Positions 31,758 to 48,924 of a stretch of DNA of 52,497 bases are shown here, piece by piece. Position 1 is the stretch's first letter. Each line of letters starts with the position of its first letter. The stretch covers positions 1 to 52,497 of IMG/VR virus record IMGVR_UViG_3300028394_002084. One strand, written 5' to 3'. Under the pieces are notes generated by a model that was not told where the DNA came from, did not search any database, and was given only the letters and a program-made list of their open reading frames with translations. The position numbers and the translations under genes are program-made. This DNA comes from a virus.

Positions 31758-32139
31758 AGTGTTGGATCACTATAATAACCCCCGCAATGCGGGAACCTTT
31801 GATAAGGAGGACACGCACGTTGGGACTGGTATGGTAGGAGCCCCGGCGTGCGGTTAGTTAGGTGATGTAATGAAGCTTCAAATTAAAGTAGATAAACTAA
31901 CAGGGATAATAACAGATGCCAAATTTAAAACATATGGGTGCGGGTCGGCAATTGCTAGCTCAAGTCTTGTCACTGAGTGGGTCAAAGGTAAAACACTTGA
32001 TGAAGCTGCCCAGCTCCGAAACTCTCAAATCGCAGAAGAACTTGCACTCCCCCCGGTCAAAATCCATTGCTCAATCCTTGCAGAAGACGCCATCAAAGCC
32101 GCAGTAAATGATTATAAACAGAGACATGTTACTCACTGA
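31741..32139 (+). pseudogene. iscU: IscU Fe-S scaffold gene interrupted by in-frame TAG
   Basis: Read as one frame, this encodes a near full-length IscU scaffold for Fe-S cluster assembly. MAYSDKVLDHYNNPRN to GMVGAPACG matches residues 1-38 of bacterial IscU, and after the interruption DVMKLQIKV to the C-terminus continues the same frame. All three cluster Cys are present (APACG, TYGCGSA, IHCSILA). Compared with the family there are three extra codons, TAG TTA GGT at 31855-31863, directly after the first Cys-Gly and before the conserved Asp. The frame is otherwise intact. It could be a recent disruption, a split gene, or a site of readthrough. GC content is higher than its neighbours, suggesting recent acquisition from a bacterial host. 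Confidence 0.85.
31870..32139 (+). CDS. IscU C-terminal part as a separate open frame
   Basis: From the natural internal Met codon, 89 residues (MKLQIKVDKLTGIIT to NDYKQRHVTH) can be translated if ribosomes restart after the TAG at 31855. The extra bases create AGGTGA four bases before this ATG, which could serve as a weak ribosome site. This part contains the second and third cluster Cys but lacks the first Cys and the essential Asp before Val-Met, so alone it should not hold a cluster normally. It might pair with the 38-residue N-terminal peptide. This view and the pseudogene view are alternatives. Confidence 0.5.
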   Translation: MKLQIKVDKLTGIITDAKFKTYGCGSAIASSSLVTEWVKGKTLDEAAQLRNSQIAEELALPPVKIHCSILAEDAIKAAVNDYKQRHVTH

Positions 32140-32833
32140 GGATATTGTCCCCATAACATACATGAGCGGAACCGGTGGCAATTTTTTATGTCATTTTATT
32201 ATAAGTGCAAAAAGAAACATAAAAACTGTTATTGAACTTAGTGAGCATGGAAATGCACATAAAACCAATTATAAAGATATTGTTGGGCCACCCTTAGGCC
32301 CCAAAGAGCCCGATCAATATAAAATTGATTTTATATTGTCTCAATTAGAACATATAAATCAAAAAGGTATACCAAGTTATCCTGTTGTGCAAAAACCATA
32401 CTATACCACCTCACATATAGTTGATATTAACTTAATTAGTGCTTATTTTAAAAAATTTATTAGAATTACATATGATTTGGATGACATAGAAGAACTTGCT
32501 ACTGTTTTCTATGGTAAATGGTACATTGATGAAGGTCATGTTAAATCAGTTATAAATACAAGACGGTCTCATGAAATATTTATTGATATGTACCAATCAA
32601 AATTTACTAGACCAAATTTAGTAAATTTTAATTCAAAATTTACTAAATTAGAAAACATGCCTAATGTGTTGTTCATCTCTTGGAAAGAATTTTTCAAAGG
32701 AAATATTGAGGAATTAATAACCAAACTAAGTATATTTACAGAGATTGATACAAATAATTTCTCACGTGAATCATTGATGCATTGGAGAAATAAAACTCAA
32801 TATTGTATTGACAAATTTATGGATATATGTTAA
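32126..32833 (+). CDS. P-loop protein, sulfotransferase/kinase-like (GTGGNFL type)
   Basis: About 235 residues from the ATG at 32126; an ATG at 32108 is possible but overlaps iscU further. Near the N-terminus, YMSGTGGNFLCHFI resembles a nucleotide-binding P-loop in the position seen in sulfotransferase-like proteins (PAPS binding). The same layout occurs in the gene at 45808 (APGAGGNFLSG), so these are paralogues. The centre has FIRITYDLDDIEELA and the C-terminus has LFISWKEFF, as in the strand-helix pattern of that superfamily. Substrate and even reaction (sulfate or phosphate transfer) are unknown. Confidence 0.55.
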   Translation: MLLTEDIVPITYMSGTGGNFLCHFIISAKRNIKTVIELSEHGNAHKTNYKDIVGPPLGPKEPDQYKIDFILSQLEHINQKGIPSYPVVQKPYYTTSHIVDINLISAYFKKFIRITYDLDDIEELATVFYGKWYIDEGHVKSVINTRRSHEIFIDMYQSKFTRPNLVNFNSKFTKLENMPNVLFISWKEFFKGNIEELITKLSIFTEIDTNNFSRESLMHWRNKTQYCIDKFMDIC

Positions 32834-32842
32834 ACTATTAAT

Positions 32843-33133
32843 ATGAGCAATGAAGTCGCAAAATTTTTAAACAGTCGCCGTCGCCATAAAAACGATGTAG
32901 CAGTCGCAAGACAAGTACGTATTGCCAAAGGATTTGGTATACCTGTTAAAGAACCGCATAAGTTTGCCAAACATCACGCTATGAATTGTGGCAATACAAA
33001 TTGTGTAATGTGCGGTAACCCACGCAAGACATTCAAAGAATTAACACAGCAAGAAAAACGTTTGTTTCAAGATGTTGAAAAAACATCAGACAAACATAGT
33101 AATGGTATCTTACCAAAAGATACAGATAAATAA
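32843..33133 (+). CDS. Small Cys-rich conserved protein of unknown function
   Basis: A 96-residue basic protein with RRRHKNDVAVARQVRIAKGFGIPV followed by HHAMNCGNTNCVMCGNPRKTFKELTQQE. The Cys pattern (C-G-N-T-N-C-x-x-C) looks like a small zinc site. I associate this arrangement with uncharacterised small proteins in phages and proteobacteria. It precedes rubrerythrin by 18 bases. A nucleic-acid-binding role is possible, not shown. Confidence 0.65.
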   Translation: MSNEVAKFLNSRRRHKNDVAVARQVRIAKGFGIPVKEPHKFAKHHAMNCGNTNCVMCGNPRKTFKELTQQEKRLFQDVEKTSDKHSNGILPKDTDK

Positions 33134-33151
33134 ACATTTTAAAGGAAAAAC

Positions 33152-33619
33152 ATGTCAGAAACAATTAACAGTTTACATACAGCATATTCCGGAGAAAGCC
33201 AGGCACACACTAAGTATAGATACTTTGCGAAAATCGCACGTGAAGAAGGCTTTGAGGATATAGCAAAGCATTTTGAGCATACAGCAGACCAAGAGTTACT
33301 ACACTCATGGGGTCATTTAGAATTGATTATTGGTAAGCCAACCACTAAGAAATGCTTAGAACTTGCTATTGAAGGTGAAACATATGAGTTTACAGAGATG
33401 TATCCTCGCTTCAAAGAAGTTGCTGAATTTGAGGGTGATTTGGCTGCTGCCAATGAAGCACACACTCAGATTGCTGAATCAAAAGAACATGCTGAACAGT
33501 TTAAAGCTATGTTGAAAAAGGCTGAAAAACGTTTTACAGCACTAGCTAAAGTTGAGCAACGCCATGCTGAAGCATACCAAACTAAATTGGATGAATTAAA
33601 CCAAATGGAGGCAAGATAA
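33152..33619 (+). CDS. Rubrerythrin (di-iron domain)
   Basis: A 155-residue di-iron four-helix protein. Ligand motifs are visible: Glu in GESQAHTKYRYFA, ExxH in ELLHSWGH, Glu in EGETYEFTEMYP, and ExxH-like EQRHAEAY near the C-terminus. Rubrerythrins reduce hydrogen peroxide with electrons from rubredoxin. The usual C-terminal rubredoxin domain is absent, but a rubredoxin-like gene starts at the overlapping TAATG. The pair therefore looks like a split rubrerythrin system. AAAGGAAAA precedes the start. In a cluster with many iron oxygenases it may limit peroxide damage or serve as redox partner; that is inference. Confidence 0.88.
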   Translation: MSETINSLHTAYSGESQAHTKYRYFAKIAREEGFEDIAKHFEHTADQELLHSWGHLELIIGKPTTKKCLELAIEGETYEFTEMYPRFKEVAEFEGDLAAANEAHTQIAESKEHAEQFKAMLKKAEKRFTALAKVEQRHAEAYQTKLDELNQMEAR

Positions 33620-33753: not shown

Positions 33754-33759
33754 CACTTG

Positions 33760-34626
33760 ATGCAATTGCATGATGGTTATTTGAGTTGGTCTGGGAACGG
33801 ATCAACTTGGAATGTAGATTTTAAACCAGTTACTCGACCCATCAAATCCTTTTATGAAGAAACTGTATTAGTAGCTGAAAAACTTTGGGCTGAAAAGCAA
33901 GGCAATATTCACTTATGCTATAGTGGTGGTCTTGATAGTGAATACGTGTTAGCAGTATTTAGAACGTTAGGTATGCCAATCACACCCGTGATTATGCGTA
34001 CACAATACAATCACCATGAAACACAATACGCATTTAAATATTGTGATAAAAATAATATTACTCCGATTGTCATTGATTTAGATTATGATAAATTTGTAGA
34101 GTCCGGCGAGTTCTTAAAAATCGCAACAGACTATAAAATAGCAGCATTTCAAATGCCTAGCAATTTGTGGCTTACTACTCAAATAGACGGAACAGTAGTA
34201 ACAGGGGATTCTGATCCCCATTTGTTTTTAGTAAATGATAATGAATGGTATGTAGATGAACTAGAACCTTTGTATACACAATTCAATTTCTATGAGCAAA
34301 ACAATATTTACGGGACACCTTTCTTTTTAAGTTACACCGCAGAACAGTATTTTGCGTTCTTGACCGACCCAACAATGCAACAGTTAGCAAACAATCAGAT
34401 ACCTGGTAAAACAGGATCTTATTCTAGCAAAGTTCATGTATATAACAATCAAAATAAATTTGTATTAGAACAACGTGTTAAAAAACACGGGTATGAAATC
34501 GTAGAACAAAGTTCTATTTTTAATCACCCTGACATACAATTAGTAAATAGTTGGAAAGATAAATGGTGGGGCTCCAGTAACCATGAATATTTTAAACTTA
34601 TCGAAGGGTTATCATGGACAAAATAG
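33760..34626 (+). CDS. PP-loop ATPase, asparagine-synthetase-like (subfamily A)
   Basis: A 288-residue protein with the PP-loop SGGLDSE at residues 55-61, which binds ATP and activates a carbonyl or carboxyl as adenylate. The flanking strand (NIHLCY) and the next element (AVFRTLGMPITPVIMRTQYN) fit the adenine-nucleotide alpha-hydrolase fold seen in asparagine synthetase C-domains, QueC and related enzymes. There is no glutaminase domain. The start is ATG 33760 (a TTG lies one codon upstream). The gene at 40994 is its closest relative here by length and motif (SGGIDSE). Acceptor unknown. Confidence 0.75.
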   Translation: MQLHDGYLSWSGNGSTWNVDFKPVTRPIKSFYEETVLVAEKLWAEKQGNIHLCYSGGLDSEYVLAVFRTLGMPITPVIMRTQYNHHETQYAFKYCDKNNITPIVIDLDYDKFVESGEFLKIATDYKIAAFQMPSNLWLTTQIDGTVVTGDSDPHLFLVNDNEWYVDELEPLYTQFNFYEQNNIYGTPFFLSYTAEQYFAFLTDPTMQQLANNQIPGKTGSYSSKVHVYNNQNKFVLEQRVKKHGYEIVEQSSIFNHPDIQLVNSWKDKWWGSSNHEYFKLIEGLSWTK

Positions 34627-35144
34627 AAATGATTACACTTACTAAAGAAAATAAAAGTGAGTTTTTTGAAAAATTAAAACAAGCATTGACTGAAAAGTTT
34701 GGTGATGAATTACCTGAGAACTATGGTACATTACAGCCATGGAGTTTATTAAATTTGATTAACAATGATATAGTAGACACTTATCAATTGTTATATGTAA
34801 ATGATAAATTTTGGACAGCAACCGGCGGTATAGTAAGAGAATTTAATAAGGGAAAAGTATATCAAGCAGTGTTTCGTGGATTCTCATATGCTGACCACCG
34901 ACACAAAGGGTTAGGTGTAAAATCATATACACATATGTATAATACATCATATCAAATTCAACGAGCTAAAGAACTCAACTGTAATAGTGTAATCATATCC
35001 TTTAACGACTATAATTACAAGTTATTTGAGTTAAATCAACGATACTTACTACCCAGAGCGTTTCCAAATCATACCTTTGTTGCATCCAGTGAACCTATAT
35101 TGTTTAACGGTGTAAAACAATGGTTGTTGACTATGAAATTGTAA
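34614..35144 (+). CDS. GNAT-like acyltransferase (putative)
   Basis: A 176-residue protein overlapping the PP-loop gene by 13 bases. GFSYADHRHKGLGVKSYTHMY resembles the acyl-CoA-binding turn (R/K-x-x-G-x-G) of GNAT enzymes, preceded by strands FWTATGGIVREF and YQAVFRGF. The following NCNSVIISFNDYNYKLFELNQRY fits the later part of that fold, where a residue swaps acyl acceptors. The call is by pattern. Its coupling to the PP-loop enzyme suggests a shared acceptor molecule. Confidence 0.5.
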   Translation: MDKIEMITLTKENKSEFFEKLKQALTEKFGDELPENYGTLQPWSLLNLINNDIVDTYQLLYVNDKFWTATGGIVREFNKGKVYQAVFRGFSYADHRHKGLGVKSYTHMYNTSYQIQRAKELNCNSVIISFNDYNYKLFELNQRYLLPRAFPNHTFVASSEPILFNGVKQWLLTMKL

Positions 35145-35154
35145 CTAAATACTA
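35145..35154 (+). promoter_or_regulatory. CTAAATACTA motif at desaturase start
   Basis: Ends two bases before the ATG at 35157 and resembles the downstream part of a T4-type late promoter. Such a position would give a leaderless message, so it may instead be a translation or stop-codon context element. Confidence 0.3.
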
Positions 35155-35156
35155 AT

Positions 35157-35864
35157 ATGACATATAAACAACAACTTCTAATAACTCAAGTATATACTCA
35201 CTTTTTCTTTGTTTTGGGCGCGATTTTGTTTCCATGGTACGTGACAATTCCTGCAATTGTGCTATCGCAGATTGTGTATGTTGGATTGTGTGGAACAATG
35301 TTATTTCATAGAACAATTGCACACAGAAACACAATTCATCCTTTAGCAGAAACAGTTTTAATTTTAGTGTCATGGTTAGGGGCTACTTCATCTGCGCTTG
35401 CTTGGGCAGGAGTGCATAGAAAACATCATAGATATAGTGATACTGAAAAAGACCCGCATAGTCCCAAATGGATGGGTAGATGGAAAGCATACTGGCAACT
35501 ATCTAACAATGACACTGATATAGTAAAGTATGTCCCTGATCTATTAAGAAAACCCTTATACCTATTTCAACATAAGTATTACTTTCATGTGTTATGGCCT
35601 ATTCACCTAGTTGGATTGATATTCTTGTCATGGCAATGGTATTGGATTTTGTTAGTTGTGCCAGGCGTTCTCATGTGGTTTGGTGGTAGTATGATTAATG
35701 TATTCTGTCATGGCAATGAAGGTCCACGTAATATACCGTTACTAGGCTTTTTGATTGGCGGAGAAGGATGGCACAAGAATCACCATGAAGAACCAGCTAA
35801 CCCGTCATTTAGACACTGGGGTGATTGGGGCGGACATTTCCACAAATTATTAAGTGTAAAATGA
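35157..35864 (+). CDS. Membrane fatty-acid desaturase 1
   Basis: A 235-residue integral membrane di-iron desaturase of the acyl-CoA/acyl-lipid Delta9 type. The three His boxes are present: HRTIAH (HxxxxH), HRKHH (HxxHH, after GVHRKHHRYSDTEKDPHSP) and GEGWHKNHH. Hydrophobic segments flank them (VYTHFFFVLGAILFPWYV, VLILVSWLGATSSALAWAG, HVLWPIHLVGLIFLSWQW). It would introduce a double bond in membrane fatty acids using O2 and an electron carrier. It is slightly shorter than bacterial family members but retains all boxes. Two further desaturase genes lie at 37768 and 40221. Confidence 0.92.
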   Translation: MTYKQQLLITQVYTHFFFVLGAILFPWYVTIPAIVLSQIVYVGLCGTMLFHRTIAHRNTIHPLAETVLILVSWLGATSSALAWAGVHRKHHRYSDTEKDPHSPKWMGRWKAYWQLSNNDTDIVKYVPDLLRKPLYLFQHKYYFHVLWPIHLVGLIFLSWQWYWILLVVPGVLMWFGGSMINVFCHGNEGPRNIPLLGFLIGGEGWHKNHHEEPANPSFRHWGDWGGHFHKLLSVK

Positions 35865-36565
35865 AACTCAAACACCAGTTGCCTACCTATAGTATAATAG
35901 ATCATTTATCTTTAGATGAAGAACTACTACTGGAATTGCAGAACTGTGTTAGTGAGTTAAACAATGAATTTAAATCAGTACTTGAAGTTAATAAAGGACT
36001 GTGCGGTGTACATCATGACTTGTTGAAATCTGTTTACGATAATTTTTTTCAAATTAGTTTGACCGATAGTGTAGTAGAAAATAAAAATATTACAATGAAC
36101 GAGTGTGAGGTTGCTCACGACAACTTGTATAAGAATGGATATAGACATAAACAATTATTGGCGTTAGATGATAATAATGTTTTAAATGAATCTACTTATA
36201 CGTCTAAAACAGATATCTATCATAGATATGCACACATTTTTGATAAGGTACTTGCAAAATTTAAAGGTAGCCCTACTAGGATTCGTCTAGTAAAATTGGA
36301 AGCAGGCAGTAACGTTTCACCGCATATTGATTACGATCCTAGCTATGCAGTTAGAATTATCATACCAATTATTGCAGACCCTGAATGTGTGAATGTATTT
36401 TGGGTAAAAAATGATGTAGAAGCTACTATGTTTGTTCCTGGAAAAGCATATTTTTTAAACACAGGATACAAACATGCAGTAATGAACATGAGTAAATGTG
36501 ATAGGTATACTTTCATGATTTCTATTAATGGTACTGAAGATATAGACCATCTTATACAAAAATGA
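35861..36565 (+). CDS. 2OG-Fe(II) oxygenase, aspartyl/asparaginyl hydroxylase-like
   Basis: About 234 residues from the ATG overlapping the desaturase stop (ATGA). The double-stranded beta-helix core carries RIRLVKLEAGSNVSPHIDYDPSYAVRIIIPI (HxD iron ligands, then Arg) and FLNTGYKHAVMNMSKCDRYTFMISI (second His and the 2OG-binding Arg). This arrangement resembles the Asp/Asn beta-hydroxylase family, which hydroxylates side chains of peptides, amino acids or lipid-linked groups. The N-terminal half is specific to this protein. Coupled translation with the desaturase suggests a shared pathway. Confidence 0.75.
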   Translation: MKLKHQLPTYSIIDHLSLDEELLLELQNCVSELNNEFKSVLEVNKGLCGVHHDLLKSVYDNFFQISLTDSVVENKNITMNECEVAHDNLYKNGYRHKQLLALDDNNVLNESTYTSKTDIYHRYAHIFDKVLAKFKGSPTRIRLVKLEAGSNVSPHIDYDPSYAVRIIIPIIADPECVNVFWVKNDVEATMFVPGKAYFLNTGYKHAVMNMSKCDRYTFMISINGTEDIDHLIQK

Positions 36566-37149
36566 ACCCATTTACTTATCGTTATTTAGATGTGCCAAAC
36601 TCACATCAAATACAAGAAGAATTAAAAAATTTCATTTTGCCATATTGTGAAGATAAACCAACTGGTCTCTGGTCTGTAGATTTATTGAAATTTTTTGCAA
36701 AATGTCCGGAATCAATTCAATATTTAACCAATTTTAATTTATCAAACAAATTAAAAAAAGTATGTTATATCATTGTTCACCCTGGGTCCGGAGAAAAAGA
36801 TGCACATGTAGATAGAAACATAGAGCCACCAGCATCATTTGGTACTGATACTAACGGGTGCTTAAGTCTTAATTTTGGTATACATAATTGTACAGAAACA
36901 CCGGTGATATTTTATGAATACTTAACTGGACCAAAAGACTATGTACCATTACCAGATCCTTCCGAAGGTTCTTATATATTCTATGCCAAATCAACACTAA
37001 AAGAAATTGATAGGTATATCTTAGATGCCCCGGTTATTATGAACAACACTGTTCCTCACGCTATATACAATAATACAGATAAAATTCGTATATCGGTGAG
37101 TTTTAGATTTTCAACTGACCCATGGAACTTGACCCAAATAAATCAATAG
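36562..37149 (+). CDS. 2OG-Fe(II) oxygenase-like protein 2
   Basis: A 195-residue protein coupled by ATGA to the preceding oxygenase. CYIIVHPGSGEKDAHVDRN contains an HxD pair, and VIMNNTVPHAIYNNTDKIRISVSFRF contains a distal His and the Arg expected to bind 2-oxoglutarate. Length fits a minimal oxygenase core. It is clearly different in sequence from the 35861 product. Substrate unknown. Confidence 0.65.
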   Translation: MNPFTYRYLDVPNSHQIQEELKNFILPYCEDKPTGLWSVDLLKFFAKCPESIQYLTNFNLSNKLKKVCYIIVHPGSGEKDAHVDRNIEPPASFGTDTNGCLSLNFGIHNCTETPVIFYEYLTGPKDYVPLPDPSEGSYIFYAKSTLKEIDRYILDAPVIMNNTVPHAIYNNTDKIRISVSFRFSTDPWNLTQINQ

Positions 37150-37766
37150 TTATATTCAGTCACCCTAGAAGTGGTAGTACTTGGATACAGGATAGTTTAC
37201 CTCAATTTAATTTGAGTGAATTGTTTACCATGTACTGCCATATAAAAAGTGTAGATATCAATAGTGGGATACGATATCGTTACTCATCTGAACCTGCAAA
37301 TGATTTAGACTACAGATTTGAATTGTTTGACAAGTTTCAAAAACAACATAATGCAATATCTGTAAAGGTTCACTTACATTTACTTACTGATGAAATATGT
37401 AATTTTTTTGAGAGCAAAGACTTACAATATATATTACTGGAACGCAATAATAATATGGATACGTTTTGGAGTCTATTAATTGCACTTAACACACTAGAAT
37501 TACATAACACAATAAATACAAAAACTATTTTTGTCTCTCGTCAGTCATTTGATGACGCAGTTTATATTATGAATGAGTGCAAGAATAGAATAGATGAGGT
37601 TAGAAGACGATTTAAACCAATTGAGATTATATATGAAGATTTGATTCAAGAGCCAATTTCTGCTGTATGGAATCCTAGTTCAAAATACATAATTCAAAAT
37701 GCTAAAGATAAAACAGAAATAACTAACATTGAAGAAGTAACTTTTTGGTTAAAGGATAAAATATAA
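37122..37766 (+). CDS. Sulfotransferase-like protein (PRSGST type)
   Basis: A 214-residue protein overlapping the upstream oxygenase by 28 bases. VIFSHPRSGSTWIQDSL near the N-terminus is the classical 5'-phosphosulfate loop of sulfotransferases. The 3' site is less certain, perhaps LQYILLERNN with the Arg near residue 109. EVRRRFKPIEIIYEDL resembles the later helix-strand. These enzymes move sulfate from PAPS to hydroxyl or amine groups. The gene at 51391 (STPRTGST) is of the same type. Substrate unknown; a cell-surface glycan or lipid is possible. Confidence 0.7.
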   Translation: MELDPNKSIVIFSHPRSGSTWIQDSLPQFNLSELFTMYCHIKSVDINSGIRYRYSSEPANDLDYRFELFDKFQKQHNAISVKVHLHLLTDEICNFFESKDLQYILLERNNNMDTFWSLLIALNTLELHNTINTKTIFVSRQSFDDAVYIMNECKNRIDEVRRRFKPIEIIYEDLIQEPISAVWNPSSKYIIQNAKDKTEITNIEEVTFWLKDKI

Positions 37767-37767
37767 C

Positions 37768-38529
37768 ATGCAATTAGGATCAACATCACATAATATTAAT
37801 TTATTGACTTTGGGAGTGACAATTAGTGTTGTTTTGGGATTTTTTAACTCACCAATGTTCACTCTATCTAATATGTTAGTAACTTTGGTCAGTTTCTATA
37901 TACTGAATATTCTAGGTAATTGGATGACATTACATAGATATTACTCACACAGATCATTTGAATTTAAAAACAATTTCTTAAAATTGATTTTCACTTTATT
38001 AGCAGTACTATCCGGTAGAGGTAGTCCACTCGGTTGGTCATATCTACATAGAAAACATCATGCATATTCTGACACAGAACAAGATCCGCATAGCCCTAAA
38101 TATTTAGGATACAAGATTTTTGGTTTTAACCATTATAAAAAACAAGAAGAAGAATCAATGCAAATCTTTCTAGTAAAAGATTTGATGACTAAAGAACAAT
38201 TGTTTATCCACAAATGGTATATAGCTATCATATTGTCATTTGTGTGTGCGTTAGCACTAATCAATTTAGAGTTATTATATTTTGTTTGGATACTTCCTAC
38301 TTTTTTAGTTCACTTGAGTCAAAACAATTTTAACTATTTTGGACATACAAATGGATATAGAAACTTTGAAACAAAAGATGATAGCAGAAATAATATATGG
38401 TTATTTCCTTTTATATTAGGAGAAGCTTGGCATAATAATCATCATTATGATGCTAAAAACTACTCAACTAAAAAGAACAAATATGAATTTGATCCATTAA
38501 GTTTTGTCATAACTATAATAAAAAAATGA
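37768..38529 (+). CDS. Membrane fatty-acid desaturase 2
   Basis: A 253-residue membrane desaturase with His boxes HRYYSH, HRKHH (in SYLHRKHHAYSDTEQDPHSP) and GEAWHNNHH, plus several hydrophobic helices. It resembles the product at 40221 in its third box and the product at 35157 in its second box. The stop overlaps the next ATG. Length is normal for phage-type members and somewhat short for bacterial Delta9 desaturases. Activity is expected to need an electron donor such as rubredoxin or ferredoxin. Confidence 0.92.
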   Translation: MQLGSTSHNINLLTLGVTISVVLGFFNSPMFTLSNMLVTLVSFYILNILGNWMTLHRYYSHRSFEFKNNFLKLIFTLLAVLSGRGSPLGWSYLHRKHHAYSDTEQDPHSPKYLGYKIFGFNHYKKQEEESMQIFLVKDLMTKEQLFIHKWYIAIILSFVCALALINLELLYFVWILPTFLVHLSQNNFNYFGHTNGYRNFETKDDSRNNIWLFPFILGEAWHNNHHYDAKNYSTKKNKYEFDPLSFVITIIKK

Positions 38530-39131
38530 TAATATACACTCCTATCGATCTACCTAAAATAGAACCTGATAATTGGGAAGTATTTTGGGATATATGGAAT
38601 ACACATCAAAATTACTTAGTCAAAACAAAAAATAATACACCATTATCTAATGCGTCTATTGGGGTTGCTGATCTGTGGTTGGGTTTAGATATTTTAAAAA
38701 AAACAACAGCGTATACAGCTTGGCAGGCACCTTTTTTTGATATTAAACATTTATTACCTAATATGTATAATTCATTAGTAACTTTGTTCCCTACTGCTAC
38801 TGTTATTAGATTAGTGCAAAGTCAAAAAAACTTTGGGGCTCACACTGATGATAATAGAAATGTTTGGTATATACGTGCATATTTACACTATACTAGTTCA
38901 AAATCTCAATGGTATTTTACTAAACCACATGATTCAAGGGGTAACAGAACATATATTGAGTTACCGGAAGAAACCAATTGGTTTGCATATAATGACTTAA
39001 ATTGTTGGCACGGGACTGATTTTGACCCTAATAATAAAAAGATTTTACTACAAGTTTTTGGTAATTATACACCTCCCTCACTGATCGAACAAAGTATCAA
39101 TAAATACAAAAACTATACCATAGACTTTTAA
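38526..39131 (+). CDS. 2OG-Fe(II) oxygenase-like protein 3
   Basis: A 201-residue protein coupled to desaturase 2. TVIRLVQSQKNFGAHTDDNRNVWYIRAYLHY carries HxD, and NWFAYNDLNCWHGTDFDPNNKKILLQVF carries the distal His. The position of the 2OG-binding basic residue (Lys rather than Arg) is less clear. Fold call comes from the spacing of these motifs between predicted strands. Substrate unknown. Confidence 0.6.
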   Translation: MIIYTPIDLPKIEPDNWEVFWDIWNTHQNYLVKTKNNTPLSNASIGVADLWLGLDILKKTTAYTAWQAPFFDIKHLLPNMYNSLVTLFPTATVIRLVQSQKNFGAHTDDNRNVWYIRAYLHYTSSKSQWYFTKPHDSRGNRTYIELPEETNWFAYNDLNCWHGTDFDPNNKKILLQVFGNYTPPSLIEQSINKYKNYTIDF

Positions 39132-39132: not shown

Positions 39133-39639
39133 ATGTATTATAAACAACTAAATGTCAGTTCTAACATAATTGACAATCTTAAAAAAAAGATAGAAACTAC
39201 CACAGAAGACCAATGGAAAACTACATTAGAGCAAGAATTGATATTATTAACAATTGACGATTTCTCACCAGACCCCGCGATTAAAAAACTTATCACCGAT
39301 GTAGGTAATATTAATAGATTATCAATTTTTAGATTTTTTGGAAAAGAATGTTATAACTGGCACATAGATGCAATAAGAGAATCATCTATTAATATGTTGT
39401 TAACAGGATTTGATAGTATGTGTATTTTTGGCAATCCAGCAAAAAATCGTAGATTTACTGACATTATTAGATTACAGCATGAACCTGCTCAATATTATAT
39501 AATGAATGTAAAGAAGATGCACACTGTCTATAATTTTGGGGATGAAACACGACATGTACTAAGTATAGGATTACCTAGCATAACTTATGAAGGTGCATGT
39601 AAATATTTACAAGACCATGCCCTAATATTGAATAAATAA
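39133..39639 (+). CDS. 2OG-Fe(II) oxygenase-like protein 4
   Basis: A 168-residue protein. FRFFGKECYNWHIDAIRESSINMLL holds the HxD pair, and YYIMNVKKMHTVYNFGDETRHVLSIGLP holds the distal His followed by Arg. Arrangement and size fit a compact 2OG oxygenase core of a type frequent in T4-like phages of aquatic bacteria. One base separates it from the previous gene, so it is in the same unit. Confidence 0.6.
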   Translation: MYYKQLNVSSNIIDNLKKKIETTTEDQWKTTLEQELILLTIDDFSPDPAIKKLITDVGNINRLSIFRFFGKECYNWHIDAIRESSINMLLTGFDSMCIFGNPAKNRRFTDIIRLQHEPAQYYIMNVKKMHTVYNFGDETRHVLSIGLPSITYEGACKYLQDHALILNK

Positions 39640-40216: not shown

Positions 40217-40220
40217 TAAT

Positions 40221-40997: not shown

Positions 40998-41914
40998 TTA
41001 AGACTACTCTTAATGATTGGCTCGTTTGGAGCTACAATGATGTTCCCTTCGGACAACGAACAAACAAAGATGACGTTTATAAATTTACTATAAATCATCT
41101 ACCGAGTAGTGAGCCGATAAAATCTTACAAAGAAGAATTATACAACAACGCTAAGTTAATGAGAGATTACCATACTGGTAAATTTGATGTATTGTTATCC
41201 GGCGGCATTGATAGTGAAGTAATTGTTAGAACTTTTAAAGATTTGGGCATCACTCACAATACCTACATTTTTAAATATGAAGATAATATAAATCACAAAG
41301 ATGTAGCATCAGCCATAGAAATTGCTACCAGTTTAAATATCCCATATACAGTAATAGATTTTAATTTAGAAAAATTCTTTAACACAGAGGCATATGATGT
41401 GTTTCAAAAAAGCGGATGCATCAGAGCAGGTAGACTCCCACATTTGAAATTTTTTGATTATTTAGATAATATTCCATTAATGGGAGAGGGAGAACCATAT
41501 TGGTCAAGAGTATTAGTTGGAGACTATAGTAAAAAATCAGAGTGGTTATTTCCTATGAATGAATCAAATCATAATTGTGCAATCTACTTGCATAATTTAG
41601 GTAGAGATAATTTATGCGACTGGTATGAATTTAGTCCCAACCTCATTAAGGCGTTTAATAATTTATCACTTATACAAGATTTATTAAACGATAATATAGT
41701 TGGCAAGACAAGTTGCTGGACTAGTAGAATCCCTATACATTTAACAATATGGCCCGATATTAAACATAAACATAAATCAACAGGGTATGAGGGTGATAAG
41801 TATCCAGGTGTGTATCCTGAATATATTACCAAAATTCAAGATTACATGACCAGTACTATCGGCTCCGGTAATGAATATTGGGTTAACTATGATGAGTTAA
41901 CTCAATTATTTTAA
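40994..41914 (+). CDS. PP-loop ATPase, asparagine-synthetase-like (subfamily A)
   Basis: A 306-residue protein with SGGIDSE at residues 69-75 after the strand FDVLL, and VIVRTFKDLGITHNTYIFKYED following it. It is similar in layout to the product at 33760 and lacks a glutaminase domain. WIIFPMNESNHN-like and LNDNIVGKTSCWTSR segments probably bind substrate; GK/GT after NNQIP or DNIV is shared by both paralogues (PGKTGSYSS and VGKTSCWTS). It overlaps desaturase 3 by ATGA, and its 3' end overlaps the minus-strand Rieske gene by nine bases. Confidence 0.75.
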   Translation: MIKTTLNDWLVWSYNDVPFGQRTNKDDVYKFTINHLPSSEPIKSYKEELYNNAKLMRDYHTGKFDVLLSGGIDSEVIVRTFKDLGITHNTYIFKYEDNINHKDVASAIEIATSLNIPYTVIDFNLEKFFNTEAYDVFQKSGCIRAGRLPHLKFFDYLDNIPLMGEGEPYWSRVLVGDYSKKSEWLFPMNESNHNCAIYLHNLGRDNLCDWYEFSPNLIKAFNNLSLIQDLLNDNIVGKTSCWTSRIPIHLTIWPDIKHKHKSTGYEGDKYPGVYPEYITKIQDYMTSTIGSGNEYWVNYDELTQLF

Positions 41915-42742
41915 TCTATTGTTTTTCACCCAATTTCCAAAATGCACACTATGATCCTCATATCTATTCATTGCGGTAGATAACGGGAAATAATTTCCTT
42001 TTTGCATTTCAGCAGCCTTAATATCTTCATGAAACACTGGTTCGAGTGTTTCAAATATCATCTTGCTGTTGATATCAACCTTATCATCGTAATAAATTTG
42101 CGTCATCCATGAAAATCCATATTCATTATTGATATCGTTAGGAATCACTGTATTAATTGATAATTTGCCAGGGCTTCCATACTCAACAAAGGTAAATGGA
42201 TATATACAACACCACCATCCATCTGGATGTGATTGTAGTACCCAGTTCTCACCCTGATCCATTATAACGTCCTCAAGATCAATCTGTTTGGACAAGAATG
42301 GGTGTATGCCTTCTTTGAATACATGTAACAAGTCTGTGTTTACATCCATAAACCAAAGCCAGCTACCATTGCTAGTTCCATAGTATGAATGACTGTATTT
42401 TAAATTCTGTTCAGCGGCCAAATCATCTACCCAGTGATGATCAGGTTCGTTAAAGTTTTTAAATACTAACCCAGACTTTCCAACGGTTGCACTTCCGCAA
42501 TTTAGTGATTTGTCATTGTTAATAGGGATACCGTTGGTTGACCATTCTAGTCCATGAAACTTGCATGTAATCTGTTGAACATGATCACCTGTGTTGTGTA
42601 GTGGATATCGGCGATGCGGACAAAACCGATGAAATAGATTTATGCCATCAACCGACTTGTTTAGTATAACTTCCGGAAGAACAAAGTTACCTTTTTCCAC
42701 AGATGAAATATGTGAAAATATTTTGGGTATAGGTTTAAACAT
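41906..42742 (-). CDS. Rieske non-heme iron oxygenase
   Basis: A 278-residue protein from ATG at 42742; a TTG at 42784 would add 14 residues. The Rieske [2Fe-2S] site is complete: Cys41 and His43 in FCPHRRYPLHN, Cys60 and His63 in CKFHGLEW. The catalytic iron site is probably DLLHVFKEGIH (Asp, His, His) plus Glu/Asp in FHEDIKAAEMQKGN. Such oxygenases hydroxylate or demethylate small molecules with electrons from a reductase not seen here. It is the only minus-strand gene in the accessory cluster, convergent with a PP-loop gene and divergent from another. Substrate unknown. Confidence 0.85.
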   Translation of the reverse strand: MFKPIPKIFSHISSVEKGNFVLPEVILNKSVDGINLFHRFCPHRRYPLHNTGDHVQQITCKFHGLEWSTNGIPINNDKSLNCGSATVGKSGLVFKNFNEPDHHWVDDLAAEQNLKYSHSYYGTSNGSWLWFMDVNTDLLHVFKEGIHPFLSKQIDLEDVIMDQGENWVLQSHPDGWWCCIYPFTFVEYGSPGKLSINTVIPNDINNEYGFSWMTQIYYDDKVDINSKMIFETLEPVFHEDIKAAEMQKGNYFPLSTAMNRYEDHSVHFGNWVKNNRLK

Positions 42743-42746
42743 TAAA

Positions 42747-42754
42747 TATTTATA
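42747..42754 (-). promoter_or_regulatory. TATAAATA late-type promoter box, minus strand
   Basis: On the minus strand the sequence is TATAAATA, an exact match to the T4-type late box, four bases upstream of the ATG of the Rieske gene at 42742. Transcription from it would begin close to that ATG. This supports its separate transcription from the surrounding plus-strand operon. Confidence 0.45.
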
Positions 42755-42786
42755 ATATAATTTCAAGGTATCAATAAAATACAAAT

Positions 42787-43965
42787 ATGAGTCTAAACGG
42801 TTATTATGTCGTTAATGAGGTGTCAATTAAAAATAAACTACAAGCCATACTTGAGGCTAGTAGAACTAAGACTACGGTTCAATGGAATTTCTTTGATGAT
42901 ATTTTTGCCAATGCAACGAAGTCATTTAACAAACATGAAGTACCCTTAAAGGAACTGTATAGAATTAGAGCACAACAGCTAAGAGACTCATACGATTATT
43001 TAATTCTCAATTACAGTGGTGGCAGTGATAGTCATAATATCTTGATGACTTTTCTAGAGTATGATATTAAACTAGACCATGTATACATTCAGTGGCCTGA
43101 GCAATTAATGAACAAAGGCATCTATACTCCTAATGCATTGGATAGAACAAATGCAAACTTTCATTCGGAATGGGATCTAGTAATAAAAAAGGACCTGGAG
43201 TGGTTAAGTAAAAATCATCCTGAAATTAAAATTGAAATAGGCGACTGGACTACAACTGTTAAAGAACAATTTTATAAAGATGACATATTTGCCAATGATG
43301 TTAGTAATTTACCAAGCATTGCAAGAGCACAAAAACAAAACACCTTTAGTACAACAGAAGGCATACTGGCACTACAAGGTAACAAGGTAGCAAGTATATT
43401 TGGTGTAGATAAACCCAACATCGTTAAAAAAGGCAACACCTGGTTTTTTTATTTTACTGATACTTCATGTATGGCTCAACCTAATCCAGATAATCCAAGC
43501 GGCACTGAATATTTTTACTGGAGTCCTAGCTTTCCAGATATAGCAATAGCACAGGCATATGCCATGAAAAAATATTTTGAAATAAATACAAGTAAAGAAT
43601 ACCTAGTACGAGCTTTATCAGAAAGGATGGTGCCTTCAACATCGCAACAGACGGCCTATACTACTAAAAATTATGAAAATTGGTATCATGAGTTTTCTCA
43701 ACTTTCAGAGATATCAAAATTAGTGTGTTACCCATACTGGGATTTTAACCGTTTTCAAGCAGACAAGCCATTTGCAATCCTGACTGGATTTAAAATGGGA
43801 ACACGAGGATGGGATAATATACTTACCAAATTACCCAAATTTGATAGAGTTCAACAGGCATGGGAGTATCATTGGAAGAGTTATTTGAACAAAATAGATA
43901 TGAAATTTCTAAGAAATAATGACACGTTGACCGTTTGTAAAACCAACTGGCATATGCTTGCATAA
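42787..43965 (+). CDS. PP-loop ATPase (subfamily B), 392 aa
   Basis: PP-loop SGGSDS at residues 77-82 in YLILNYSGGSDSHNILMTF. The N-terminal part ELYRIRAQQLRDSYD is shared nearly word for word with the product at 46733 (ELYRIRAQQIRDAYD). Later landmarks are also shared: VASIFGVDKPNIV versus IASVWGTDKPVLAV, and FYWSPSFPDIAI versus FYWSPELPELMI. The two therefore form a pair distinct from the shorter subfamily A. ATP-dependent activation of an acid or amide is expected; I do not recognise the substrate. It starts three bases from the Rieske alternative start, in divergent orientation. Confidence 0.75.
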   Translation: MSLNGYYVVNEVSIKNKLQAILEASRTKTTVQWNFFDDIFANATKSFNKHEVPLKELYRIRAQQLRDSYDYLILNYSGGSDSHNILMTFLEYDIKLDHVYIQWPEQLMNKGIYTPNALDRTNANFHSEWDLVIKKDLEWLSKNHPEIKIEIGDWTTTVKEQFYKDDIFANDVSNLPSIARAQKQNTFSTTEGILALQGNKVASIFGVDKPNIVKKGNTWFFYFTDTSCMAQPNPDNPSGTEYFYWSPSFPDIAIAQAYAMKKYFEINTSKEYLVRALSERMVPSTSQQTAYTTKNYENWYHEFSQLSEISKLVCYPYWDFNRFQADKPFAILTGFKMGTRGWDNILTKLPKFDRVQQAWEYHWKSYLNKIDMKFLRNNDTLTVCKTNWHMLA

Positions 43966-43982
43966 TACGTAGAATATAAATC

Positions 43983-44297
43983 ATGTTTACATTAATTAAA
44001 AAATATATACGAGAAGATGTTACTATTCCATTTTTTGGAGAGCACGAACCATATCCAAAAGAATACTTGATGCAAATTAATGATAGATACATTAAAACCA
44101 GCAAGATATTAAAAAGTACAACAGAGTTTTCGGATGATAAAAAAATACAGACTACAACAATATTATGGAAAACGTCAGATGCTTTTTTAGACTTTGTGGT
44201 AGACAGTTCTTATCATATAGCTACCTACATGAGAAAACAACACATTTATAATTTAAAAAATAATATCAGAACAGAAACCAACCGTATAGGAAAATAA
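43983..44297 (+). CDS. Small protein, paralogue of 45492 (monooxygenase-like fold?)
   Basis: A 104-residue protein beginning FTLIKKYIREDVTIPFF. It resembles the product at 45492 (YQIIKKLVRPGVDTPWP) in start, length and the block TTTILWKTSDAFLDF versus LTVLWETKEAWEEF. The strand-helix pattern looks like a ferredoxin-like dimeric barrel of the antibiotic-biosynthesis-monooxygenase kind, but that is only a fold guess. It lies two bases before the P450 gene, so it may be the P450's partner. Confidence 0.5.
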   Translation: MFTLIKKYIREDVTIPFFGEHEPYPKEYLMQINDRYIKTSKILKSTTEFSDDKKIQTTTILWKTSDAFLDFVVDSSYHIATYMRKQHIYNLKNNIRTETNRIGK

Positions 44298-44298
44298 C

Positions 44299-45435: not shown

Positions 45436-45459
45436 TTTTAAACAAATTGAATTTCCTTA

Positions 45460-45467: not shown

Positions 45468-45491
45468 CATCTGTATCATACAGGAGAATAT

Positions 45492-45803
45492 ATGTATCAA
45501 ATAATAAAAAAATTAGTAAGACCGGGCGTAGACACACCATGGCCTGATACTCTAGTAACTATGGATCCACAGCTTATAGAACATTTCAAAACAAATCACA
45601 TAGAAACCGGTAAACATATTTTTCGAAACACCGACGATCATAAAAACGGATTAGAACGTACATTGACTGTTTTGTGGGAAACTAAAGAAGCATGGGAAGA
45701 GTTTGAAGCAGATCCATTAATGACGGAAATGCGTAATCATGTTTCACAACTATTTAAAGATGCAGGGATAACGGAAGAAATTGTAAGTTTCTCCGAAATT
45801 TAA
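45492..45803 (+). CDS. Small protein, paralogue of 43983 (monooxygenase-like fold?)
   Basis: A 103-residue acidic protein (YQIIKKLVRPGVDTPWPDT, then TLTVLWETKEAWEEFEADPLM). The pattern strand-helix-strand with W-E-T-x-E-A-W-E-E-F resembles ABM-type small barrels and related quality-control or oxygenase partners. Its relative is at 43983 on the other side of the P450. It has its own promoter-like box and AGGAG site, so it may be made at higher level than the P450. Confidence 0.55.
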   Translation: MYQIIKKLVRPGVDTPWPDTLVTMDPQLIEHFKTNHIETGKHIFRNTDDHKNGLERTLTVLWETKEAWEEFEADPLMTEMRNHVSQLFKDAGITEEIVSFSEI

Positions 45804-45807
45804 TTTA

Positions 45808-46743
45808 GTGCCCTCTATATTTGACTTACCTCATCTTTTTATTGTATTCGCCCCCGGCGCCGGGGGCAACTTTTTGTCAGGAATATTCGCCGGCCTAATT
45901 AATAAAGAATATTCTGATTTAGCAATATCAGAATCAGGAAGCTCACACACAACAATCTCTAAAAAATTTGATGTAAATAGTGATCTTTCTATGGGAACAT
46001 TTATTGACGATACATCAAGTATCGATAAAAAAATAAAACACTATAGAGAATTGTTTAGCGATTTGATAATAAATCATCCAATAGTATCTTGGACACATGA
46101 TTTTAACAATATCGAACTATATCGCAATATTTTCCCTAATTCAAAAATAATTGTAGTAACACAGTACACTGACGCTGAACAGTTAGCAGTCACGTTCATG
46201 CATGTGATTAAAAATCTAATGGATAATGATGTATCCACTGCAATACCAATTAGTCAATTTAAATCTATACAAAAAATCTTCAAAGAAGATTGCATAAATG
46301 TGCTTAGAAAAAAAATGAGTGAAACTCATATTAATTTAATATTCTCTGACCCCAAATATAAAAATATCGTAACATATATCTACTTAAAAAGAATGATGGG
46401 GTGGTATGGGTTACTCCACTTAGTAGAAGATGTACCTAAACAACATTTTTTGGAGATTATTAAATATGGTACAAGCAATAAACCTTACGAAATTGACAAA
46501 TATTTAAATAGTGATTGTGTTTTACTACCATATTCGTCTATTATGTCAGGAGATGTTCATGTATTATTGAAAGTAATAAAAAATGTGTTATCCAGAGAAT
46601 TGACCAACACTGAAAAAATATTTGTAAATGACAACTATTATAAATATAGAGCTAAACAAAATTTAGATATTTTAACAAATTCAAAAATGTATTATAAAAA
46701 TCTTAGAAATTTAAATGTAGAAAGAAACATAAATGATAACTGA
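45808..46743 (+). CDS. P-loop protein, sulfotransferase/kinase-like (GAGGNFL type)
   Basis: A 311-residue protein starting at GTG (no ATG nearby). FIVFAPGAGGNFLSGIFAGLI gives a glycine-rich nucleotide loop like that of the product at 32126. Later SKIIVVTQYTDAEQLAVTF parallels FIRITYDLDDIEELATVF in that paralogue, a second shared block. The C-terminal part (VHVLLKVIKNVLSRELTN) is helical. PAPS- or ATP-dependent transfer is plausible, substrate unknown. The stop overlaps the following PP-loop gene. Confidence 0.5.
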   Translation: MPSIFDLPHLFIVFAPGAGGNFLSGIFAGLINKEYSDLAISESGSSHTTISKKFDVNSDLSMGTFIDDTSSIDKKIKHYRELFSDLIINHPIVSWTHDFNNIELYRNIFPNSKIIVVTQYTDAEQLAVTFMHVIKNLMDNDVSTAIPISQFKSIQKIFKEDCINVLRKKMSETHINLIFSDPKYKNIVTYIYLKRMMGWYGLLHLVEDVPKQHFLEIIKYGTSNKPYEIDKYLNSDCVLLPYSSIMSGDVHVLLKVIKNVLSRELTNTEKIFVNDNYYKYRAKQNLDILTNSKMYYKNLRNLNVERNINDN

Positions 46744-47980
46744 TTTGGGTTTTTATAGTGTACGTGGGAAAAGTTTTTCTACAAACAAAGTCATGGCTGT
46801 TCTTGAGGCACAAAAAACAAACGCTGAAGTAGAATGGAATTATTTTGATGATGTATTCAATAAAGCAGATTGGTTAACTGAACCTGAAATTTCATTAGAA
46901 GAATTATACCGAATTCGAGCGCAACAAATTCGTGATGCGTATGATTATGTTGTTATATATGTCAGTGGGGGCGCTGATAGTTCAAATGTTGTTAGGACTT
47001 TTATAAATAATAATATTCATATAGATGAAGTAATTACAGAAATACCGGAATCTGGTATTAAAAATTTTGATTGGAACGATAAAGATTTTACCGCAAGTAA
47101 TTTAATGTCCGAAGCAAAGTATGCACAATATCCTATACTTCATGAAATTTCTATCAATTCTCCGTCGACACGTATAACTGTTCACGACTTTTTTACCGGT
47201 GTTGTTAATGTGGAATCAGACGAATGGATATATCAAAATGAGGGAGACATTATTAGCATGTCAAACTATCAGTATGGGCGCATGGACCCCTTCCCTCATT
47301 TAAAAGACTTAGCAGAACAAGGTAAAAAAATTGCATCTGTATGGGGTACTGATAAACCAGTACTGGCCGTTTGGGGTGATGGATACATTTATACATTGAT
47401 TGCTGACTCCGCAGTGTATGTGCCTAAATATCCCTTCAAGACAGTATATCCTAATGTAAATAGAGTATTATTTTATTGGTCCCCTGAATTACCAGAACTA
47501 ATGATTAAGCAGTCGCATATTGTCGCCCGAGAAATTCTTAAACCTGAAAATAAATTTATTTTACGGGCTGCTATAGATCAAGGAAAGCGTAGTAAGGAAG
47601 TGAGCCTACTAGGAGTTGATGATACATTAAAGAATATTTTTAATTCTGCGGCCGATACAAATGTATCTTACTCACCTAAAACAATATATCAACGAAGCAT
47701 AGTTCCTTTTATATATCCAAACACATTTAGAGAAGACGTATTTCAGGTACTCAAGTTTGAACAATCGCAAACCTTCTGTCCGGCTATTAATAATTGGATG
47801 AAATCATTACATGGAAATAGTCGCATAGGAGAAATGATTATTAGTGATTTTTCCTTGTTTTATAAAAACATATTACCCAAGTATTTAAATCCAAATAAAA
47901 CAGGATTTAATATGTGTCTAAAAAGGTTCCGTATTGGATCTATAAAAAGTTTTTTACCAAAATCAAATAACAACTTATGA
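46733..47980 (+). CDS. PP-loop ATPase (subfamily B), 415 aa
   Basis: PP-loop SGGADS at residues 78-83. It is a paralogue of the 42787 product, with the same N-terminal block ELYRIRAQQIRDAYD, WGTDKPVLAVWGDGY and FYWSPELPELMIKQ. It differs in the C-terminal third. It overlaps the P-loop gene before it by 11 bases and the Bug receptor after it by ATGA. As elsewhere in the cluster, adenylation is the likely step. It probably arose by duplication followed by divergence. Confidence 0.75.
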   Translation: MITDLGFYSVRGKSFSTNKVMAVLEAQKTNAEVEWNYFDDVFNKADWLTEPEISLEELYRIRAQQIRDAYDYVVIYVSGGADSSNVVRTFINNNIHIDEVITEIPESGIKNFDWNDKDFTASNLMSEAKYAQYPILHEISINSPSTRITVHDFFTGVVNVESDEWIYQNEGDIISMSNYQYGRMDPFPHLKDLAEQGKKIASVWGTDKPVLAVWGDGYIYTLIADSAVYVPKYPFKTVYPNVNRVLFYWSPELPELMIKQSHIVAREILKPENKFILRAAIDQGKRSKEVSLLGVDDTLKNIFNSAADTNVSYSPKTIYQRSIVPFIYPNTFREDVFQVLKFEQSQTFCPAINNWMKSLHGNSRIGEMIISDFSLFYKNILPKYLNPNKTGFNMCLKRFRIGSIKSFLPKSNNNL

Positions 47981-48924
47981 AAAAAAATATAATTTCAATA
48001 TTATTACTACTACTATGTATTAGTTCTGCATGGTCAGATACAATCAAATTAATCGTGCCGTTTGCTGCCGCAGGCCCCATTACAGATATTGCGAGAGCGA
48101 TTGCTCCTACATTATCTAAAAAATTAGATAAAACTATAATAATAGAAAATAAGCCAGGGGCAAGTGGCGCAATTGCAATGGAATTGGTATCTAATTCCCC
48201 ATCAGATGGGCTAACTTTAATTATGGTTAATAATGGACTACTAAACATAAATCCAATGTTGAATACTGCTACTAGCTATAAGTCATCCGATGTAGTATCC
48301 GTAGGAGTATTTGCAACTGCACCAATCATATTGTATACTAGTTCTTCTATCCCTGTCAAAAACTTAAAAGAACTAATAGATTACATAAAGAGTAATCCTG
48401 GAAAGGCAAGCTGGGCTAGTCCGGGTTTAGGAACTAATCCACATTTACTTGGGGAAATGCTTAAAGCGCAACATGATTTAGACATGGTGCATGTTATGTA
48501 TAAAGGTACATTACCTGCAACCATAGATGTGGCCGAGGGTAGAGTCACTATGATGTTTGATATTCTAAATCCAAGAATGACATCATTGTTTGATGCAGGA
48601 AAAACGAAGCCTATTGCAGTAATGGGAACTGAGCGAATACCATCACTACCTAATGTTCCAACTGTCGTAGAAGAAGGCTACTTTTTCTTAATTACTCAAT
48701 CTTGGGTTGGTATATCTGTTAAATCTGATACTCCCGAACCTATTTTAAAACAGTTAAGAACTGTACTGACAGAAACTGTAGAAGATCCAGAGACAAAAGC
48801 TAACTTAAAATTTTTAGGACTGAATCCGTCAAATATAAAACCAGCGGCCGCACAAAAATTCATAGATGATGAAAAGAACAAGTGGACAAAGGTAATTAAA
48901 AAAGCAAACATTAAGATAGAATAA
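47977..48924 (+). CDS. Bug/TctC-family periplasmic solute-binding receptor
   Basis: A 315-residue protein with a signal peptide (MKKNIISILLLLLCISSAWS). The mature part follows the Bug family: LIVPFAAAGPITDIARAIAP, IIIENKPGASGAIAMELV, SNSPSDGLTLIMVNN, then WASPGLGTNPHLLGEML and RIPSLPNVPTVVEEGY. These receptors bind carboxylates or amides for tripartite tricarboxylate transporters, or act as sensors. They are especially numerous in Betaproteobacteria. No transporter membrane genes are next to it, so it would have to use host partners. It is coupled to the PP-loop gene by ATGA, which ties it to the accessory cluster. It is the last protein gene before the RNA region. Confidence 0.92.
   Translation: MKKNIISILLLLLCISSAWSDTIKLIVPFAAAGPITDIARAIAPTLSKKLDKTIIIENKPGASGAIAMELVSNSPSDGLTLIMVNNGLLNINPMLNTATSYKSSDVVSVGVFATAPIILYTSSSIPVKNLKELIDYIKSNPGKASWASPGLGTNPHLLGEMLKAQHDLDMVHVMYKGTLPATIDVAEGRVTMMFDILNPRMTSLFDAGKTKPIAVMGTERIPSLPNVPTVVEEGYFFLITQSWVGISVKSDTPEPILKQLRTVLTETVEDPETKANLKFLGLNPSNIKPAAAQKFIDDEKNKWTKVIKKANIKIE

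Follow-up and report, generated by a model that had tools for sequence, protein, structure and literature searches.

A variable gene island in a probable jumbo phage and the coupling of its PP-loop ATPase family to a solute-binding protein

Does a dense run of oxidative and ATP-using genes in a phage genome encode one pathway, or is a smaller unit kept within a changing set of neighbours? The question is raised by a block of about 17 kb (31.9–48.9 kb) in the 52,497-bp IMG/VR virus record IMGVR_UViG_3300028394_002084, itself a fragment, which is called the window here. The genes of the block are tightly packed and overlap frequently, as the original prediction on this DNA had stated; it had also tentatively read the whole composition as a tailoring pathway, a reading that is supported only in part: one pathway of this full composition is not supported, as the gene set varies among phages. 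The better unit is a PP-loop ATPase of the family of one block gene, PP3, together with a solute-binding protein (SBP), the oxidative enzymes being variable additions.

Relatives were gathered by scanning 2.9 million viral contigs with the P450, with PP3 and with a PP3/PP4 profile, PP4 being a second member of the PP3 family in the window. The PP3/PP4 profile detected the family in 333 viral stretches, and 79 loci were kept. Across 76 clustered PP3 loci (redundant loci L001–L006, L008 and L010 removed and L084 kept apart, with some near-duplicate pairs remaining), each holding a PP3-family gene, the SBP TctC was present in 45 and a membrane desaturase in 39. Genes of the PP3, TctC, P450, ABM-like, ST3 and desaturase families recur together in relatives, whose gene sets are reshuffled yet overlap strongly; the scattering without conserved co-occurrence that the original prediction had named as its refutation is therefore not seen for this core. 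The IscU gene and the gene at 32843 occur in loci L009 and L016 without the genes that lie directly downstream of them in the window, and the P450 gene is found in some loci without PP3. Because composition shifts in this way, the reading of one fixed 17-kb pathway was dropped. Sequence comparison instead identifies the block as an island of changing content in a phage lineage to which a contig of 349 kb also belongs; like phage auxiliary metabolic islands in general, it places metabolic genes where the phage genome is variable.

Genes at 21–26 kb match that contig (348,701 bp) at 56–93% identity, including the large subunit of ribonucleotide reductase (RNR) and with the gene at 23758 as the sole exception, and because of these matches we regard the window as probably a piece of a jumbo-phage genome. 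The block genes look functional because the ratio of nonsynonymous to synonymous substitution rates (dN/dS) against locus L012 (64–98% protein identity) was 0.065–0.20 in the 11 of 13 compared genes for which it could be computed, including PP3 (0.065), P450 (0.076) and PP1 (0.08); dS was saturated for OG1 and gene 30534.

Coupling was assessed on 26 non-redundant phage contigs of 70–357 kb by rotating positions 5,000 times for the PP3, TctC and desaturase families, with radical SAM proteins and RNR as controls. This set excludes the contigs of L032, L034, L054 and L063, which duplicate or overlap others. Four A1-profile hits at E ~1e-4 were removed (a fifth was on one of the excluded contigs), as was a fragment of a gene already counted, and one PP3 gene and four RNR genes that had been found in pieces were each counted once. 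For TctC, every hit at E ≤ 1e-3 was retained, including four that fell below the Pfam cut-off; one desaturase below its cut-off was likewise retained, and radical SAM hits were restricted to E < 1e-8 (n = 92). TctC lay within 5 kb of a PP3-family gene in 26 of 35 cases (rotation mean 4.0, reached in 0 of 5,000 rotations), at a median distance of 1.2 kb and on 21 of the 22 TctC-bearing contigs, and desaturases did so in 14 of 31 cases (rotation mean 2.9, again 0 of 5,000). Radical SAM genes were this close in 10 of 92 cases (mean 8.6) and within 10 kb in 24 of 92 (mean 15.3; reached in 330 of 5,000 rotations); for RNR the count within 5 kb was 0 of 12. TctC and desaturases thus cluster around PP3 and radical SAM and RNR genes do not, so that the association is a specific one and does not reflect metabolic genes crowding together in general. 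Single contigs of 128–357 kb (G022, G023, G028 and G003, from loci L065, L066, L082 and L017, respectively) carry 14–19 radical SAM matches at E up to 1e-3, without clear clustering around PP3.

The pairing extends to gene order. There are 41 directly adjacent, same-strand PP3/SBP pairs spread over 37 of the 76 loci, 35 of them with a gap of ≤30 nucleotides (nt) and 20 overlapping, and the distances among PP3 genes correlate with those among their adjacent TctC partners (r = 0.68; 28 pairs after removal of identical ones; 0 of 5,000 permutations). The window TctC is 39% identical to a Cupriavidus homologue over 94%, and 53 of 55 phage TctC proteins have a leader-like N terminus by a simple hydrophobicity rule rather than a trained predictor. 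Locus L083 has the order TctA, TctC-like protein and PP3 on one strand amid phage genes (receptor E 5e-6, just under the TctC cut-off), and L019 has TctA, a TctC-like protein with a leader and two PP3 genes, beside which P450, cupin, ABM-like, ST3 and PP4-like genes run divergently; the L019 receptor has no Pfam match and scores E 3e-17 with the phage TctC profile. DctP (PF03480), a second carboxylate-type SBP family unrelated to TctC, also neighbours PP3: a scan with DctP's own alignment gave 80 loci (not de-duplicated), of which 24 had PP3 no more than 6 kb away and 9 had it adjacent; 4 of the 24 belong to contigs that the PP3 scan had also retained. The DctP-like family (L129–L208) occurs in 289 viral stretches and, in several lineages, forms part of a conserved, functionally uncharacterised gene block.

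Outside the viral contigs scanned, few relatives were found. Tblastn with single sequences (E 1e-3) against 50,697 GenBank phage records returned nothing related to PP3 (two queries), to PP2 or to the P450; TctC matched two of these records and DES2 three, and the window DNA had no megablast match in GenBank phages. PP3-like proteins, uncharacterised and from uncultured Caudovirales phages, are present in a library of predicted viral proteins, at E down to 7e-25. Among 84,980 species of bacteria and archaea, a pattern scan returned one PP3 relative, an undercount, since a profile search of 290 genomes from that relative's phylum found four strong matches and one marginal. These cellular relatives come from a few genomes of one bacterial phylum (L084, named Bacteriovoracaceae, and L223–L225); an RpiB/LacAB-like gene lies near the relative in L224 by Pfam and, by eye, likewise in L223 and L225. 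The gene after PP3 in L084 had been taken by eye for nicotianamine-synthase-like, a guess set aside when Pfam showed only sub-cut-off methyltransferase matches. No description of the gene combination was found in the literature searched, which included PMC11360552 and had most subscription journals and preprints outside its coverage.

The simplest account of the PP3/TctC coupling, which we put forward tentatively, is that the core of the island imports a carboxylate, activates it with ATP and then tailors it oxidatively. Exported TctC would bind the carboxylate in the periplasm and pass it to host TctAB, two relatives bringing their own TctA. Cytosolic PP3 and PP4 would use ATP to adenylate it, in the manner of asparagine and beta-lactam synthetases, and would join it to ammonia or another amine, after which P450, ABM-like, cupin, 2-oxoglutarate (2OG), Rieske and desaturase enzymes, varying by phage, would oxidise the product or a lipid partner. 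What the analysis shows is the identity of the genes, their conservation, the PP3/TctC coupling, the PP-loop motif and the predicted fold; from these we infer transport, adenylation, ligation and tailoring, and a benefit to the phage. Bacterial natural-product tailoring clusters likewise pack P450, ABM, cupin, 2OG, Rieske and ligase-like enzymes together; unlike them, the island is phage-borne and has no non-ribosomal peptide synthetase or polyketide synthase scaffold enzyme among the Pfam matches of the block, where PP3 and PP4 could be the scaffold ligase.

PP3 shares the SGGxDS motif, kept in 104 of 104 full-length family members, with the ATPase half of asparagine, beta-lactam and carbapenam synthetases, and its predicted fold (structure model from 79 sequences; predicted local distance difference test (pLDDT) 92.6) aligns to their C-terminal half. 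In a structural second look, the best seven rows were asparagine synthetases, beta-lactam synthetase and TsnB9, with 236–280 residues aligned at a root-mean-square deviation (rmsd) of 5.5–6.5 and Z of 8.3–9.7, only a little above the Z of 7–8 that is common in this tool without kinship. The comparison with 1ct9 gave Z 9.7 and rmsd 5.9 over 280 residues, and NAD and GMP synthetases, LarE and TilS/MesJ ranked below the asparagine and beta-lactam synthetase rows. PP3 further has an invariant Lys towards its C terminus (K327); beta-lactam synthetase has a catalytic Lys, to whose position K327 might correspond.

Several results weigh against import and ligation, and the first concern this fold. Foldseek against the PDB gave no confident PP3 match; its best, at E 3e-3, was the methyltransferase EgtD, outside the asparagine synthetase-type family, followed by LarE (much of the list), TtuA, TrmU and TilS. 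Neither PP3 nor PP4 has a Pfam match at 0.01, and no sequence homology to PF00733 was found; PP3 profiles aligned with asparagine synthetases only over the PP-loop region (hhalign probability 5%), the same region being all that aligned with the NAD-synthetase-like protein of L128 (named by eye). Unlike asparagine and beta-lactam synthetases, PP3 has no N-terminal nucleophile (Ntn) glutaminase with Cys2: no family member starts M-C, and SGGxDS lies at median position 81. A PDB sequence search with the PP3, ABM and ST3 profiles gave no result, the best ABM match being an antibiotic biosynthesis monooxygenase at E 0.07. Because the glutaminase is missing, the profiles align only at the PP-loop and Z is modest, we say of the modelled PP3 that it may work like, rather than be, an asparagine-synthetase-type ligase.

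On the transport side, the window TctC shares its family and leader with the Bug receptors of TctABC transporters, and TctA adjoins it in two relatives; unlike that system, neither TctA nor TctB is among the Pfam-scanned open reading frames (ORFs) of the window (29.9–52 kb), and TctC is coupled to a PP-loop ATPase family found in few bacteria. TctA was found on only 1 of the 26 large contigs, which may be fragments; in most cases the permease would have to come from the host. PP3 occurs without TctC on 4 of these 26 contigs, and the bacterial PP3 neighbourhoods (L084, L223–L225) have no recognised TctC beside the gene. The DctP-like partners appear by eye to start without a leader peptide (like MKTIRWVLAHEPIELFLRAA), which is odd for uptake, and the simple rule scored 2 of 6 and 29 of 86 DctP-like proteins as leader-like. 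Shared phage ancestry could also be the source of PP3/TctC co-divergence. On the oxidative side, no redox partner for the P450 or the Rieske protein was among the block's Pfam matches, and a PP3 gene was present in the available stretch of only 10 of 29 P450 loci and missing from 19, a figure uncorrected for the near-identical and short contigs among the 29.

The P450 family as a whole was found in 31 viral loci. ExxR is kept in 29 of 29 loci and FGxGxHxC in 23 of 29; of the six non-canonical proteins, four carry W in place of F with HAC retained, one retains HAC alone and one shows neither pattern. The closest solved relative by sequence is 8fbc. With PP3 in the available stretch of 10 of 29 loci, and with copies elsewhere lying inside a structural gene block or, again without PP3, in a cassette of Prx, AhpD, hydrolase and cupin genes, the P450 counts as a mobile accessory and not as a step fixed in one pathway. 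One copy (L089, 9998–11155) lies inside an apparent structural gene block of another phage lineage, its structural genes named by eye. PMC11814380 names another phage P450, CYP102L1 of Mycobacterium phage Adler; the window family, by comparison, spans 31 viral loci and is unmatched in the GenBank phage records searched. In the window the P450 gene is flanked by genes for two ABM-like proteins, at 43983 and 45492, that had been overlooked. The model of ABM2 (pLDDT 97) has matches at Z 8.0–9.2 and rmsd 2.3–3.1, many titled ABM, IsdG or dimeric ferredoxin-like, and it is predicted with confidence to be an ABM-type ferredoxin-like alpha+beta barrel monomer.

The island could instead be a hypervariable stretch beside structural genes that collects unrelated host-manipulation genes, sharing a place and not a pathway. 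This explanation, possible but rather doubtful, fits the differences in composition from phage to phage, the P450 copies found elsewhere, the antisense Rieske gene and a G+C content that is mostly 30–35% in the block against 37–43% in the first 24 kb. PMC7029224 describes a comparable variable island in pelagimyophages, a host-recognition cluster beside structural genes that carries metabolic genes of unclear role; relative to what is described there, the window island differs in its P450, Rieske gene and PP-loop/SBP pair and in having a statistical core. A shared landing place, however, predicts that other metabolic genes should also gather near PP3, whereas radical SAM genes do so at most weakly and TctC and desaturases clearly, and PP3 and TctC overlap and co-diverge.

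Many PP-loop enzymes modify tRNA, and the PP-loop proteins of the island might act on tRNA or DNA, with the 2OG, P450 and Rieske enzymes as hydroxylases of nucleic acids or proteins from phage or host, a reading with which the QueC-like score of PP2 and the presence of LarE, TtuA, TrmU and TilS in the PP3 Foldseek list agree. We consider it unlikely, as a secreted SBP, with a permease on two contigs, has no obvious place in RNA or DNA modification and the asparagine/beta-lactam synthetase group outscores LarE and TilS/MesJ in the structural second look. Remodelling of the membrane or envelope, in which desaturases, P450 and sulfotransferase-like proteins would alter host lipids for replication, lysis or rival exclusion and TctC would feed fatty-acid synthesis, draws on the three desaturases of the window, on the enrichment of desaturases near PP3 and on a Baikal phage study that interprets a phage acyl-CoA desaturase in this sense (PMC7678222). 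It is quite improbable, as it leaves four PP-loop and several 2OG-like proteins unexplained and as, of the 18 contigs that bear desaturases, only 9 have one at most 5 kb from PP3. That the SBPs mop up a host signal whose ligand PP3 makes or destroys as counter-defence is highly improbable: the DctP-like proteins, leaderless by eye, would be cytosolic and stand beside TctC and PP3 in some of their 289 viral stretches, but the TctC partners are leader-like and TctA permeases lie beside two.

The genes of the block and its surroundings are collected in Table 1. Pfam bears out the rubrerythrin, the three membrane desaturases, the Rieske oxygenase, the P450 and the periplasmic receptor named in the original prediction. 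Its four 2OG-oxygenase-like proteins hold for OG1 by Pfam and otherwise follow from the HxD...H pattern seen by eye, and its four PP-loop ATPases hold for PP2 by Pfam and for the other three by the SGGxDS motif. The three P-loop or sulfotransferase-like proteins and the two acyltransferase-like proteins are weak assignments (no Pfam match for AT1 and AT2 at 0.01), and the 'rubredoxin' was given up for a match to phrog_4499.

Table 1. Genes of the block and adjoining features in the window
Feature	Position	Strand	Basis and remarks
IscU/NifU_N, downstream part	31870–32139	+	PF01592, E 2e-35; neighbouring module, outside core
ST1, P-loop-like	32108–32833	+	By eye; no Pfam or PHROG match
Small Cys-containing protein ('rubredoxin' of the original prediction)	32843–33133	+	phrog_4499, unknown function
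Rubrerythrin diiron domain	33152–33619	+	Pfam, E 4e-17
PP1, PP-loop protein	33757–34626	+	SGGLDS by eye; clusters with PP2
AT1, acyltransferase-like	34614–35144	+	By eye only; no Pfam match
DES1, membrane desaturase	35157–35864	+	PF00487, E 5e-8; His boxes by eye
OG1, Asp/Asn (Asp/Arg) hydroxylase-like 2OG oxygenase	35825–36565	+	PF05118, E 5e-5
OG2, 2OG-like	36562–37149	+	HxD...H by eye; no Pfam match
ST2, sulfotransferase-like	37122–37766	+	PF00685, E 0.0013, below cut-off
DES2, membrane desaturase	37768–38529	+	Pfam FA_desaturase, E 8e-18; His boxes by eye
OG3, 2OG-like	38526–39131	+	HxD...H by eye; recurs in L016 between two desaturases
OG4, 2OG-like	39133–39639	+	HxD...H by eye; no Pfam match
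AT2, acyltransferase-like	39644–40216	+	By eye only; no Pfam match
DES3, membrane desaturase	40197–40997	+	Pfam FA_desaturase, E 1e-17; His boxes by eye
PP2, QueC-like PP-loop ATPase	40994–41914	+	PF06508, E 1e-5
Rieske oxygenase alpha-like	41906–42784	-	PF00355, E 2e-6; antisense, 2 nt from PP3 start
PP3, core PP-loop ATPase, mainly in viral contigs	42787–43965	+	SGGxDS; asparagine-synthetase-C-like predicted fold
ABM1, ABM-like small protein	43983–44297	+	Family of ABM2
Cytochrome P450	44299–45435	+	PF00067, E 3e-17; ExxR and FGxGxHxC by eye
ABM2, predicted ABM-type alpha+beta barrel	45492–45803	+	Structure model; no Pfam match
ST3, P-loop-like protein, recurs in core	45808–46743	+	Sub-cut-off Pfam match to a domain of unknown function
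PP4, second PP3-family ATPase	46733–47980	+	SGGxDS motif; overlaps TctC by 4 nt
TctC (Bug-type) solute-binding protein, core	47977–48924	+	PF03401, E 2e-55; leader peptide visible
Fifth 2OG-like ORF, outside block	50708	-	HxD...H by eye

Nine tRNA genes follow the block. The Rieske gene, alone on its strand in the block, overlaps the end of PP2 and leaves no intergenic space for a promoter of its own. The T4-type late promoter TATAAATA has 7 matches against 11 expected, and sigma-70-like and terminator-like sites are at the level of shuffled sequence; a perfect 7-pair, all-GC hairpin followed by a T-rich stretch lies at 45850–45867, inside the start of ST3 and over its P-loop-like codons. The IscU gene (31741–32139) is interrupted at its conserved Cys-Gly-Asp site by a short insertion containing an in-frame stop; two further assemblies of the same phage and the 349-kb relative share this insertion, and one more relative has a different short insertion there. 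By clustering, an HNH endonuclease family is present in three lineages with an IscU insertion and was not found in three uninterrupted ones (L012, L021 and L030), which suggests that the endonuclease is linked to the insertion. The RNR large-subunit frame of the 349-kb relative (G002, ~167416–170748, L213) is 1,377 amino acids long, and its domain falls into two separate stretches, which suggests that an intein or another in-frame insertion lies between them.

Most descriptions of metabolic genes in phages concern single copies of genes from the host. Taken further, import and ligation would mean that aquatic phages run a metabolism of their own: stand-alone synthetases found mainly in phages, each linked by translational coupling to a carboxylate-binding protein and in some cases also to its permease, would activate a scavenged carboxylate and, together with the P450, Rieske, 2OG, ABM and desaturase enzymes of the phage, build a small molecule not known to be made by any cell; we hold this broader claim to be conceivable, though doubtful. 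An ATPase family mainly of viral contigs (333 viral stretches against one relative in the pattern scan of cellular species, undercounted as that is) is tied to solute uptake, and its island supplies ligase-like, P450 and Rieske enzymes that have yet to be studied. The link between PP3 and TctC thereby gives a testable way into what aquatic phages draw from the surroundings of the cells they infect.

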